This document shows positions 37,747-40,229 of a stretch of 64,000 nucleotides of DNA, piece by piece (within the stretch, counting starts at the first letter, position 1; each line of letters begins with the position of its first letter). Source of the stretch: Pseudomonadota bacterium (lineage in GTDB: Bacteria > Desulfobacterota > Binatia > UBA9968); contig JAJPJQ010000038.1 of NCBI GenBank assembly GCA_021324155.1, positions 1 through 64,000 on the forward strand, written 5' to 3'. The notes below the pieces were generated by a model. It saw nothing but the letters and a program-made list of their open reading frames with translations, was not told the DNA's origin and made no database searches. The position numbers were made by a program, and so were the translations under genes.

Positions 37747-39243
37747 ATGATTGCGAATGAAGAGCAGCAAACAAAAGCACCCTTTCGACTCGATATCTGC
37801 GACTGGATCTTTTTCGGAGTTCTTTTTGTCGCGATCCTGATTCGGGTCAACTACTTCCTCATTACCCAAGATCAGCCGCTCTGGTGGGACGAGGCGGAGT
37901 ACATGCTCAAGGCGAAAGCGCTGGCTTTCGGCACGCCTGAGACGGGCTGGTACAAATCTCGGCCGGTGCTTTTGCCGATCCTAGCGGCTGGGCTTCTCAA
38001 GCTCGGCGTCGGCGAAGTCGCCATCCGGCTTCTCTGGATCGCGCTTTCGACCGCGTCGTTGATTTTTCTGTACCGCCTCGGCGCACTGCTCTTTAATAAA
38101 CGTGTCGGCCTTTACGCCGCGGCTCTCGCCTCAGCTTTTTATATCGATCTTTTCTATTCGATGCGCCTGCTCGTCGATCTGCCGCAGGTCTTCTTCGTCG
38201 TCCTCGCCGCGTATTTGCTCGTAAGAGCCGTCTACTTCAATGCAATCTATAGCGCGTGGGCGGTGCTGCCAGTGCTCTTTCTGGGAACCGCGATGCGCTT
38301 CACAGTGGGAATTTTTATCGTCGTCGCGATAATTTTTCTAATCGTCGTTGAAAGAGACCGGCTGTGGAAGGATAAACGCTGGCTGGTCTCTTCGCTTCTC
38401 GGCCTCGCCGTATTGCTGCCGTTTCTGATCTACTACTGGGCCGCCTACGACAATCCCTTTTTTCCCTTCCTATCGCAACGCGCCCTCCGGACAGCGGGAA
38501 AAGCTGCGCTCGATCCGGGCCAGATCTTAATCCAGTACATTGTCTTCTTTCCGAACTACACGAACATACCTGTCACGGTCGTATTTATCGCCGGACTTGT
38601 TCTAGCCGTTGTCGTGCTCGCATGGCGGGGCGCCTTTAGCGACAAGACCGTCCAAAGTTATTTGCTGTTGCTTCTTTGGACGGTCGCTCCGTTTCTTTTT
38701 TTCGCTCTGCTCGTCGATCATTTCGAGGACCGCTACATAGCCATGATCTTCCCCGCGATTTTCCTGTTCACCGCTGTAGCGCTGGATGCGGGATACAAAT
38801 ACCTTAAGCGCTTTAATTTGCCGGCGGCGGTCGCCGCCGTCACATTGTTTCTGCTTTACGCGGCGGTTTCGATGGCGCTGCGCTCGGACGCCGAGATCGC
38901 CGCCAAGCTCGACTCGTTCGCCGCGATCCAGGGCGCCGGCCTGTGGATCAAGGCGCATTCCCAGCCGGGCGATTCGGTCATAACTTCGAGCGTGCCGCAA
39001 AATACTTATTATTCGGAACGCGCCTCCTATCCGATACCGAACCAGCCGGAAGTTTTCGAGCGAACGATCGCGGAGGGAAAGTCAAAATATCTGGTGCTTT
39101 CGCTATGGGAACAGTCGCCGTCTTGGGCTTATCGCTGGCCCGCCGCGAACCCGGGCAAAGCCAGCGCGGCCGCGGCATTCTTTTTCGACGCGGAACGGAA
39201 GCGCCCGGCGGCGATCGTTTACTCGTTGCACCCCCAAAATTAA
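37747..39243 (+). CDS. Glycosyltransferase family 39/ArnT-like integral membrane protein
   Basis: 498-aa membrane protein with about 11-12 helices, of the dolichyl/undecaprenyl-phosphate-sugar transferase (PMT/GT39, ArnT-like) superfamily. The first periplasmic loop has the catalytic acidic pair in QPLWWDEAEYMLKAK near residue 45. Later features: DLFYSMRLLVDLPQVFF and FEDRYIAMIFPAIFLF; the C-terminal periplasmic part holds QPGDSVITSSVPQNTYYS. The acceptor (lipid A, protein or another glycan) is unknown. ATG 37747 has no good ribosome site, so the start is approximate. GC returns to the local norm here. Confidence 0.82.
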   Translation: MIANEEQQTKAPFRLDICDWIFFGVLFVAILIRVNYFLITQDQPLWWDEAEYMLKAKALAFGTPETGWYKSRPVLLPILAAGLLKLGVGEVAIRLLWIALSTASLIFLYRLGALLFNKRVGLYAAALASAFYIDLFYSMRLLVDLPQVFFVVLAAYLLVRAVYFNAIYSAWAVLPVLFLGTAMRFTVGIFIVVAIIFLIVVERDRLWKDKRWLVSSLLGLAVLLPFLIYYWAAYDNPFFPFLSQRALRTAGKAALDPGQILIQYIVFFPNYTNIPVTVVFIAGLVLAVVVLAWRGAFSDKTVQSYLLLLLWTVAPFLFFALLVDHFEDRYIAMIFPAIFLFTAVALDAGYKYLKRFNLPAAVAAVTLFLLYAAVSMALRSDAEIAAKLDSFAAIQGAGLWIKAHSQPGDSVITSSVPQNTYYSERASYPIPNQPEVFERTIAEGKSKYLVLSLWEQSPSWAYRWPAANPGKASAAAAFFFDAERKRPAAIVYSLHPQN

Positions 39244-39245
39244 AA

Positions 39246-39283
39246 GGGCCCGCCCCTTCGCTGCAAAACGAAGAAGCGGGCCC
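39246..39283 (-). terminator. Strong intrinsic terminator for the minus-strand mini-transcript
   Basis: Long hairpin: GGGCCCGC plus CCTTCG (39246-39260) pairs with CGAAG and GCGGGCCC (39269-39283) around an 8-base loop with one small bulge. On the minus strand it is followed by TTTTAATTTT; on the plus strand there is no T-run, so it serves the minus strand. Confidence 0.85.
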
Positions 39284-39412
39284 CGGTGACTGGGGGGATT
39301 TACAGGCCTGAGCCCGAACCCCCGTCAATTGGCTGGCTCAGACGCTAGGTCCCAGCCACCTCACAGTCCGTACATTTGTCATTTATCACTGGACCACCTC
39401 CTTTCCCTGCTG
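39284..39412 (-). ncRNA. Self-contained small transcription unit: structured RNA with 14-codon reading frames
   Basis: Between a promoter (39419-39447) and a terminator (39246-39283) lies about 130 bases that start with AAAGGAGG (39397-39404). Seven bases on is GTG 39389, giving MINDKCTDCEVAGT and a TAG (39345), after which the frame stays open for 14 more codons to TAA (39300). ATG 39382 gives another 14-aa peptide. Downstream text folds: GGCTGG/CCAGCC, GACGGGGG/CCCCCCAGTC, and CTGAGCC (minus of 39335-39341) can instead pair with GGCTCAG (minus of 39308-39314). It could be a small RNA, a mini-protein mRNA with a CxxC peptide, or both. Confidence 0.6.
39345..39389 (-). CDS. Possible 14-aa CxxC mini-protein
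   Basis: GTG start with an ideal AAAGGAGG site seven bases upstream; peptide MINDKCTDCEVAGT, ending at an amber codon. The CxxC pair suggests metal or redox contact if it is made. Too short to judge by coding statistics; the ribosome site and dedicated promoter are the evidence. Confidence 0.4.
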   Translation of the reverse strand: MINDKCTDCEVAGT

Positions 39413-39418
39413 ATTAAC

Positions 39419-39447
39419 AGTTTAAGGAAGCGATCTGGGTAAGTCAA
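39419..39447 (-). promoter_or_regulatory. Sigma-70-type promoter of the minus-strand mini-transcript
   Basis: On the minus strand: -35 TTGACT (39442-39447), a 17-base spacer, -10 TAAACT (39419-39424). Expected start of transcription is near 39412, which puts the AAAGGAGG site a few bases into the RNA. It begins 18 bases after the yfiH stop codon. Confidence 0.65.
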
Positions 39448-39464
39448 TAAAAAACCGCCTTGCT

Positions 39465-40229
39465 CTATGACGGCCAACCGATAAAGCTCAGCTGACGGCC
39501 GGTGTCTTTGTCGCGACGGTAGGAAAAGAATTCTCGGTCGCACGCGTTGCACGGACCGGCGACGACGATGCGCTCGGGCGCGACGCCGGCGCCTTCGAGC
39601 TGGCGGCGGTTGAGCTCGCGGATGTCGAGATACTGTTTACCGACGCGCGACTGTATCGCGCTTTTCGCCGCGTCGCCCCACTTAACGGTAAGCGGCTCGG
39701 CAACGTCCGCGCCGATCTCGTAGCAGCACACGCCAATTGTCGGTCCGAGCGCGGCCTCGATCTCTTCCGGCGCGACGCCGTAGCGTTCTTTCAAATGCCG
39801 CACCATCTTCGGCGCGATGCCCGCGAGCGTACCGCGCCAGCCGGCGTGCACGACCGCGGCGAGCTTGCGCTCCGGCATCGAAAAAAGAATCGGCGCGCAG
39901 TCGGCTGTCAGCAGGCCGAGGAAAATCCCCGGCTTCTCGGCGACCATGCCGTCGGCCTCGCCGATCTCCTTGATCTTCGGATCGGCGACGTCAGCGATGT
40001 GATCACCGTGCACCTGCTTCATGGTGACGACTTTGAGATTGTGCACGCCGACGGCTTTCTTCACGTCGCAGAAGTTGTCCTTGACGACCGCGGGATCGTC
40101 GCCGACGCGGAACGATAGGTTGAGGCCCATGAACGCGCCTTCGCTCTTGCCGCCGCGCCGGCCGAGAAAGCCGTGCAGCGGCGCGCCGCGGCGCTCCCAT
40201 GCGGAAACTTTGATCCAGCGAAGCTCCAT
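39465..40229 (-). CDS. yfiH: YfiH/LACC1-type polyphenol oxidase-like purine nucleoside enzyme
   Basis: Member of the multicopper-oxidase-like laccase domain family (Cu-oxidase_4); characterised members act as purine nucleoside phosphorylase/adenosine deaminase or guard cell-wall precursor editing. 254 aa. Zinc/active-site motifs: LLTADCAPILF near residue 115, VVHAGWRGTLAGIAP near 130 and GPTIGVCCYEIG near 170; also HGFLGRRGGKSEG at the start and CDREFFSYRRD near the end. Start at MELRWIKVSAW (40229) by homology. Cytoplasmic. It is followed by the mini-transcript and faces the GT39 gene. Confidence 0.9.
   Translation of the reverse strand: MELRWIKVSAWERRGAPLHGFLGRRGGKSEGAFMGLNLSFRVGDDPAVVKDNFCDVKKAVGVHNLKVVTMKQVHGDHIADVADPKIKEIGEADGMVAEKPGIFLGLLTADCAPILFSMPERKLAAVVHAGWRGTLAGIAPKMVRHLKERYGVAPEEIEAALGPTIGVCCYEIGADVAEPLTVKWGDAAKSAIQSRVGKQYLDIRELNRRQLEGAGVAPERIVVAGPCNACDREFFSYRRDKDTGRQLSFIGWPS

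Follow-up and report, generated by a model that had tools for sequence, protein, structure and literature searches.

SgrS/SgrT is a dual-function small RNA (sRNA) with a small open reading frame (ORF), and translation attenuation leaders carry a short ORF that ends inside an RNA helix and is followed by a terminator. The locus described here lies on the minus strand of the window, by which we mean the whole 64-kb stretch of Binatia DNA that was analyzed. Like the attenuation leaders, it has an ORF that ends in a helix and a terminator behind it, whereas the window offers no co-directional downstream gene. SgrS/SgrT and VcdRP resemble it in being small RNAs with promoter, ORF, and terminator; they differ in having a pairing region with known targets, while here the ORF and the fold share bases.

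The RNA can be assigned to RF02471 (Ms_IGR-5), a little-studied family of soil bacteria, which is named for Actinobacteria (“Actinobacteria sRNA”) and is typed as an sRNA. According to the accessible portions of two papers, RNA-seq validation of Ms_IGR-5 is entered as “yes” for Streptomyces lividans TK24 (PMC8079986), and an MS_IGR-5-type RNA is one of the two Rfam-matched RNAs among 139 sRNA transcription units of Streptomyces avermitilis (PMC8780764). Significant ribosome reads on MS_IGR-5 are reported for M. abscessus and M. smegmatis in the part of a third paper that was available, whose authors caution that non-coding RNAs show ribosome reads too and that clear translation evidence is lacking (PMC4974804). 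In the open-licence literature searched, which was available in part, we found no study on the function of Ms_IGR-5, its ORF, its pairing with the 16S rRNA tail, or the helix here named stem C.

Two further cases bear on the ribosome site. Extended Shine-Dalgarno (SD)–anti-SD sites of Staphylococcus aureus, in which pairing goes beyond the canonical site near the start codon, involve two extra pairs on ordinary mRNA in the section of the report available, whereas here the whole tail is matched in one small RNA (PMC13009471). In the Caulobacter sRNA CC2171 (RF01867), the consensus GAAAGGAGGUGAUCCAG is a 17-nt complement of the 16S rRNA 3′ end of a relative (G027) and overlaps GUG, and the stretch behind GUG pairs with a strand two bases before the terminator stem. 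By contrast, the window scores 20.9 bits with this model against a cut-off of 75 (a copy from another Binatia family, L216, scores 19.0), and the rest hardly aligns; CC2171 may be a parallel or distant case.

A transcription unit of the Ms_IGR-5 family

An earlier note, made from the letters alone, had described a complete orphan mini-transcription unit. Its parts, namely promoter, ribosome site, GTG, 14 codons, TAG, 14 more open codons to TAA, and terminator, were all found again at their places on the minus strand (Table 1). The observation was right and understated, and the arrangement is confirmed as more than chance. What a sequence-only reading missed is that the frame is conserved up to TAG and not beyond, that the match to the 16S rRNA tail is long, and that a covarying helix involves the end of the ORF.

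Table 1. Parts of the unit in the window
Feature	Position	Strand	Basis
Whole unit, promoter through terminator	~39447..39237	minus	
Small RNA, RF02471 (Ms_IGR-5) match	39239..39411	minus	Rfam scan
Putative promoter TTGACT-17-TAAACT	39419..39447	minus	promoter scan and comparison within the order
Ribosome site AAAGGAGG	39404..39397	minus	read in the sequence
Extended Shine-Dalgarno site GGAAAGGAGGTGGTCCAGT	39388..39406	minus	19-nt contiguous complement of the 16S rRNA 3′ end, G-U allowed
Mini-ORF GTG...TAG, 14 codons, MINDKCTDCEVAGT	39345..39389	minus	conserved frame, start, and stop position
GTG start	39389	minus	mini-ORF end
TAG stop	39347..39345	minus	mini-ORF end
Predicted stem C, 5′ arm GGTGGCTGGG, in the E-V-A-G codons	39351..39360	minus	covariation; partner 39285..39294
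Predicted stem C, 3′ arm CCCAGTCACC, abuts terminator	39285..39294	minus	covariation; unpaired in the RF02471 structure line
Stem A, 5′ arm, begins 1 nt past the stop codon	39335..39343	minus	4/10 pairs changed on both sides
Stem A, 3′ arm	39306..39314	minus	same alignment as the 5′ arm
Stem B, 5′ arm, possible H-type pseudoknot with 39295..39301	39317..39323	minus	one mismatch in the window copy
Stem B, 3′ arm, AAUCC linker	39295..39301	minus	f1/f2 alignment
Intrinsic terminator, 18-pair stem and T-rich tail	39237..39284	minus	terminator scan
Terminator 18-pair stem (tail TTTAATTTTG)	39284..39245	minus	terminator scan

The whole RF02471 model is matched in the window with 49.1 bits, above the gathering threshold of 45. 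This is the only gathering-level Rfam match in the 64-kb window and the only RF02471 match in its genome. As judged by the model score, the window RNA is a Binatia member of the known RNA family RF02471 Ms_IGR-5. The order of ribosome site, GAGGTG block, stem A, AAUCC linker, and terminator is the same, and both the 3′ terminator stem and the central stem A of the model are present. The 5′ hairpin of the model (GUCC with GGAC) can be formed by the window copy as GTCC/GGAC, and some relatives of family f1 have GTC instead of GAC. The differences from RF02471 are that its structure line lacks stem C and that the inner stems in Binatia are unlike those of the model.

TTGACT-17-TAAACT is the sole promoter-like (sigma-70-like) match in 39100..39600, where shuffled sequences give 0.1 on average. 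Within the order, 27 of 28 loci combine TTGA(C/T) with a −10-like hexamer at a spacing of 17 to 18 nt, and from the end of this hexamer to the ribosome site there are 13 to 15 nt; the 28th locus begins at a contig edge. The terminator scan gave two overlapping terminator-like sites (0.7 in shuffles), and the 190-nt strand folds with z = −5.4, lower than any of 200 shuffles. Of the 27 order loci with enough sequence, 18 have a plain T-run behind the hairpin, which itself was seen by eye, and in the other 9 the tail is broken; among the 14 copies read from other Binatia families, the T-run is absent in L211, L220, and L222.

The upstream, co-directional neighbor in the window encodes a Cu-oxidase_4 protein (Pfam), presumably of the pgeF/YfiH type, and the downstream neighbor, convergent and ending at 39243, a PMT_2 glycosyltransferase (Pfam), which is the GT39 gene of the earlier note. 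Neighbor orientations are mixed, with 41, 35, 33, and 18 of the 127 loci (from 162) in which both neighbors were called, these ORF calls being rough and noisy in GC-rich DNA and checked with Pfam for the two window neighbors only, the rest by eye. The neighbors seen by eye we take to be pgeF-like and HEAT-like in Binatia, pabC-like in mycobacteria, and Fur- and FABP-like in Actinomadura. No co-directional gene was seen at a constant downstream place in the rough calls across lineages. While the adjacent genes change with lineage, promoter spacing, mini-ORF, and stems stay together, which bears out the orphan unit; that it is not the leader of any gene, as had also been claimed, agrees with the mixed orientations and with the convergent downstream gene of the window. 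Comparison shows a stand-alone small RNA gene with its own predicted promoter and terminator. From the neighbor analysis onward, L001, L151, L152, and L156 (repeats) and L030 (a 16S locus) were left out. A tmRNA was rejected, as ARAGORN found none in 38900..39900.

Homologues were looked for in relatives, as had been suggested. A DNA search detected the RNA in 27 of 58 genomes including the window's own, namely in 27 of 35 of the order and in 0 of 23 of the class outside it. With a covariance model built from 17 order copies and including stems C and A, it was found in 44 of the 145 class genomes searched, of which 17 do not belong to the order; 14 of these 17 matches were fetched for reading and are the copies here called other Binatia. 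With strict filters, RF02471 is present in 23 of 100 genomes of Actinobacteria, the phylum of a pattern-bearing Mycobacteriaceae metagenome-assembled genome (MAG), with 13 scoring above the cut-off, and none of 14 control genomes has it. The window's own genome and each of 10 genomes from other lineages have a single copy. Two RNA-bearing contig edges (L018 and L029) occur in one assembly (G017) and are probably one split locus or a strain mixture.

An exact pattern, AAAGGAGGTGRTC-N8..38-GYGAGGTGRCTG, was scanned over named genomes and met at least 120 stretches, mostly in Actinobacteria among the matches listed; the other labels among the matches listed are Pyrinomonadaceae, Blastocatellia, other Acidobacteria, Sumerlaeota, Zixibacteria, Spirochaetia, Deltaproteobacteria, and plain “bacterium”, and the labels of pattern-bearing MAGs may be wrong. 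The pattern occurs in 4 of 149 genomes of Acidobacteria (the phylum of a Pyrinomonadaceae MAG) and in 2 of 297 from the phylum to which the window belongs; because the model found 44 of 145 genomes in the class, the exact pattern underestimates the spread. It occurs in 0 viral contigs, and a phage origin was rejected on that ground.

In an Rfam scan of 16 loci, 7 reached the RF02471 gathering threshold, i.e., 6 of 6 from Actinobacteria and L053 from Zixibacteria. The 9 below it include Binatia L044 and the copies from Acidobacteria, Sumerlaeota, and Spirochaetia, so that the unity across phyla rests on the fetching pattern together with frame, stop, and stem C. Among five other Binatia loci, L216 scored 49.1 bits, L211 39.7, L212 39.2, and L210 34.6, and L222 gave no match. 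The copies read outside Actinobacteria and Binatia differ in sequence and, by eye, mostly end in a terminator-like hairpin; L045 has no T-run, and L122, which is cut off, was excluded as too short.

The mini-ORF and the 16S rRNA tail

In all 28 loci of the order, a frame opens with ATG or GTG, closes with TAG, and encodes a peptide ending in C-E-V-(A/T)-(E/G)-T, with Cys always directly before E-V. Its length is 11, 12, 13, or 14 codons. From GGAGG to the conserved GAG there are 28, 31, 34, or 37 nt (in 2, 7, 12, and 7 loci, respectively), which means that the length shifts by whole codons. All 22 RF02471 loci, none of them fetched via that string, have GAGGTG as well.

The position of the stop was counted over 169 loci, which gave 137 distinct sequences after identical mini-ORF regions had been collapsed; the stop codon had played no part in the selection of loci by the pattern. 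In 136 of the 137, the stop is found exactly five codons past GAG (23/23 in the Binatia order, 93/93 in the pattern set among the matches listed, and 20/21 in the RF02471 set), and the other two frames of these 137 sequences have no fixed stop. The first in-frame stop is TAG in 115, TAA in 12, and TGA in 10. Likewise, the frame is closed after five codons in all 14 copies from other Binatia families fetched with the order-built model, whose peptides are of the type VQLSTTVISEVVAS or MCSTTVICEVVAS.

A start codon (ATG, GTG, or TTG) stands 5 to 16 nt behind GGAGG in 23 of 23 order sequences, 93 of 93 pattern-set sequences among the matches listed, and 17 of 21 RF02471-set sequences; it is TTG in 28 of the 93 (again among the matches listed) and 9 of the 21. 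The four remaining RF02471-set sequences would, by reading, need CTG or ACG. In the actinobacterial loci L163, L165, L166, L172, and L174, CTG or ACG are apparently the only in-frame start candidates, behind a very strong ribosome site. A weak RF02471 member, L171 (115..294), keeps the ribosome site, TAG, and the stem C-like pair, and its ORF is in another frame relative to GAG.

The ribosome site and the last codons form the longest invariant runs, and conservation is not confined to the terminator hairpin, the outcome that the earlier note had held against its own reading. Comparison shows the mini-ORF to be conserved as a putative reading frame, mostly of 11 to 15 codons, that ends five codons past GAG. 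Selection on the peptide itself is less clear than selection on the frame. The idea of a dual-function RNA stands as far as the kind is concerned, the ORF being conserved as a frame; its translation and its activity on targets are predictions.

The 16S rRNA 3′ end was read in one relative (G027, of 14 asked) as ...GGCTGGATCACCTCCTTTCT and applied to all lineages; an RF00177 search found no 16S rRNA gene in the window's own assembly (G000), whose completeness is given as 98%. With this end, the window copy forms 19 contiguous pairs, G-U allowed, and the last two bases of the extended site are shared with the GTG start. The pairing extends over 14 to 22 nt in 183 of 184 loci and over at least 18 nt in 63 of them, the pattern loci in both counts being those among the matches listed. 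By set, the runs are 15 to 22 nt in 31 loci of Binatia families f1 to f3 (with three repeats), 12 to 22 nt in 14 other Binatia loci, 16 to 22 nt in 22 RF02471 loci, and 14 to 21 nt in 117 pattern loci (among the matches listed), which had been selected for 13 of the tail-pairing bases. L044, L064, and L130 repeat L012, L005, and L023, and all were retained in this count.

Of the 16S-tail matches computed in the window, that of the ribosome site is the strongest: the duplex of its 26-nt stretch has −29.9 kcal/mol, whereas the best value among 89 window ORFs is −16.8. Within the window's genome, the 13-mer AAAGGAGGTGRTC is present at the ribosome site and nowhere else; in total, there are 19 occurrences in 15 genomes.

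The helix between the ORF end and the terminator

Stem C is formed by GGUG(G/A)CUGNN, where the ORF ends, and NNCAG(U)(C)ACC, directly before the terminator, a 3′ strand that the RF02471 structure line leaves unpaired. It encloses stem A and, in many members, the possible pseudoknot. In an alignment of 17 copies from families f1 and f2, 98.8% of the stem C cells are paired, and two pairs show changes in both strands; one of these double changes (A-U to G-C) is that of the window copy.

Of 125 distinct loci that could be placed, 69 have a Watson-Crick pair at arm base 9 and 61 at arm base 10, two positions chosen by no search; the shuffles, which ignore relatedness, have means of 39 and maxima of 56 and 55. 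Base 11, beyond the helix, shows no excess in these loci (17 against a shuffle mean of 25). An earlier set of 158 placed loci of 170, from which the 12 without an anchor had been dropped and in which some anchors are visibly wrong, gave 84 Watson-Crick pairs at base 9 (shuffle maximum, 70), 81 at base 10 (shuffle maximum, 67), and 19 at base 11 (shuffle mean, 30). At arm base 7 of the 125 rows, T meets A 88 times and G 30 times, and C meets G 6 times and A once, the single C-A case being the wrongly anchored L175.

Individual members change in step. L217 and L219, of one genus, have GGTGGCG/CGCCACC in place of GGTGGTG/CACCACC, and RF02471 members with ACC or GCC as the third codon (L164, L167, L169, L170, L172, L174, and L175) have, by eye, CGG in place of CAG. 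L155 has CTACG with CGTAG and L168 GTTGGC with GCCAAC. Among the 14 other Binatia copies, L220 and L222 have no clear stem C partner. A free best-partner search over 167 loci was too lenient to separate own arms from foreign ones (9.6 and 9.0 of 10 pairs), and an anchored matrix (154 of 170 loci placed), blurred by G-U pairs and wrong anchors, likewise gave no separation. Stem C, as the comparison shows, is a predicted helix with covariation that joins the last codons to the pre-terminator strand.

Inside stem C, 4 of the 10 pairs of stem A are changed on both sides in the f1/f2 alignment. For stem B, 89.1% of cells are paired, and 4 of 8 pairs are changed on both sides. Stem B may form a pseudoknot with stem A; a nested inner stem fits the alignment about equally (95.3% of cells paired for the pseudoknot and 95.2% for the nested hairpin, with 10 and 8 pairs changed on both sides). 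In other phyla the pseudoknot was read by eye. Family f3 has different inner hairpins, as seen by eye, and its nine copies are too alike for covariation.

What the RNA may do

The ORF and stem C draw on one set of bases, so that the helix and a translating ribosome cannot be present at once. We see an even chance that the unit encodes a ribosome-engaging small RNA of the Ms_IGR-5 family that is switched by translation of its own mini-ORF, where the switch and the output are what we infer. Comparison gives the unit, its frame, the tail complementarity, and stem C; translation in Binatia, like switching and output, is deduced from these. A 30S subunit would dock on the nascent RNA by pairing with the 16S tail, the ribosome would read the mini-ORF and thereby open stem C, and it would stop directly against stem A. 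Between rounds of translation stem C would close again, and the RNA would thus have two states, ribosome-occupied and free, whose balance follows translation. The output might be the holding of 30S subunits or the freeing and hiding of the 3′ strand for a partner, and would depend on how well initiation and a short elongation run. The main product is probably something other than the peptide.

The main rival, which we consider improbable on balance though by no means negligible, is a micro-protein gene, in which the short peptide would be the effector, with the structured part serving only to stabilize its mRNA. It would account for the conservation of frame, start, and stop and for the Cys that precedes E-V in 28 of 28 order loci. 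Moreover, among the 81 distinct non-Binatia ORFs that have seven codons before GAG, 38 carry Ser at codon −5 from it, encoded by TCN (24) and AGY (14), whereas 2000 column shuffles average 18.3 with a maximum of 28; this serine count is, however, inflated by relatedness. The most constant residues, E-V-A/T, sit on stem C, where pairing holds the letters, and in L217 and L219 Val has become Ala while the pair is kept. The remaining peptide varies in sequence and length. The absence of synonymous changes at GAGGTG is no test, as all rows of the serine count were anchored there.

That the RNA is instead a classical non-coding, base-pairing sRNA, with an incidental ribosome site and ORF, is unlikely. 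Such an RNA would fit the sRNA type given by Rfam, the strong folding, and the members with weak or near-cognate starts, but not the in-frame stop fixed in 136 of 137 sequences and again in all 14 from other Binatia families, nor the long tail pairing. Quite unlikely, too, is an action on the 3′ end of 16S rRNA itself, for example on tail maturation or integrity, rather than as a messenger. Complementarity of at least 18 nt in 63 of 184 loci is beyond the need of a start site, and we take it to extend into a strand of 16S helix 45; the conserved ORF, the stop, and stem C would nevertheless be left unexplained.

That the RNA serves a neighboring gene as leader or attenuator, or regulates the 3′ end of GT39 in antisense as the earlier note had considered, is very improbable. 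The terminator tail does reach the GT39 stop codon, and 19 neighbor ORFs in Binatia families f1 to f3 form a pgeF-like cluster by eye. However, the downstream gene in the window is convergent, orientations are mixed, and neighbors differ by lineage; nothing but the terminator tail reaches the GT39 ORF, and in relatives the RNA sits beside other ORFs, which removes the ground for an antisense controller. A mini-protein made by amber readthrough, also proposed there, can practically be dismissed in spite of the 14 open codons past TAG in the window and of TAG as the commonest stop (115/137), since the frame after TAG shares no sequence among the 28 loci and is often interrupted, with stops at varied places, and TAA (12) and TGA (10) serve as stops outside Binatia.

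A broader reading of the ribosome-engaging RNA is tentative. It holds that a widespread RNA is dedicated to the 16S tail, the whole of which its ribosome site would partner, with the mini-ORF as a built-in test of translation by which the RNA is opened or closed, and that this RNA gauges or buffers free 30S subunits. With the same reserve, this reading would unite the Ms_IGR-5 RNAs of Actinobacteria with the copies in Binatia, Acidobacteria, Zixibacteria, Sumerlaeota, and Spirochaetia, and CC2171 of Caulobacter is perhaps built on the same plan. It might point to a general RNA by which translation initiation is read out or buffered, and its predictions for the start codon, the stop codon, the length of tail pairing, and stem C are testable in Streptomyces lividans or Mycobacterium smegmatis.

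In the promoter spacer of the Binatia f1 to f3 copies (39425..39441 in the window; L002 to L028), a (C)GCTTCC-like block often stands directly before the −10 hexamer and is a possible candidate operator.
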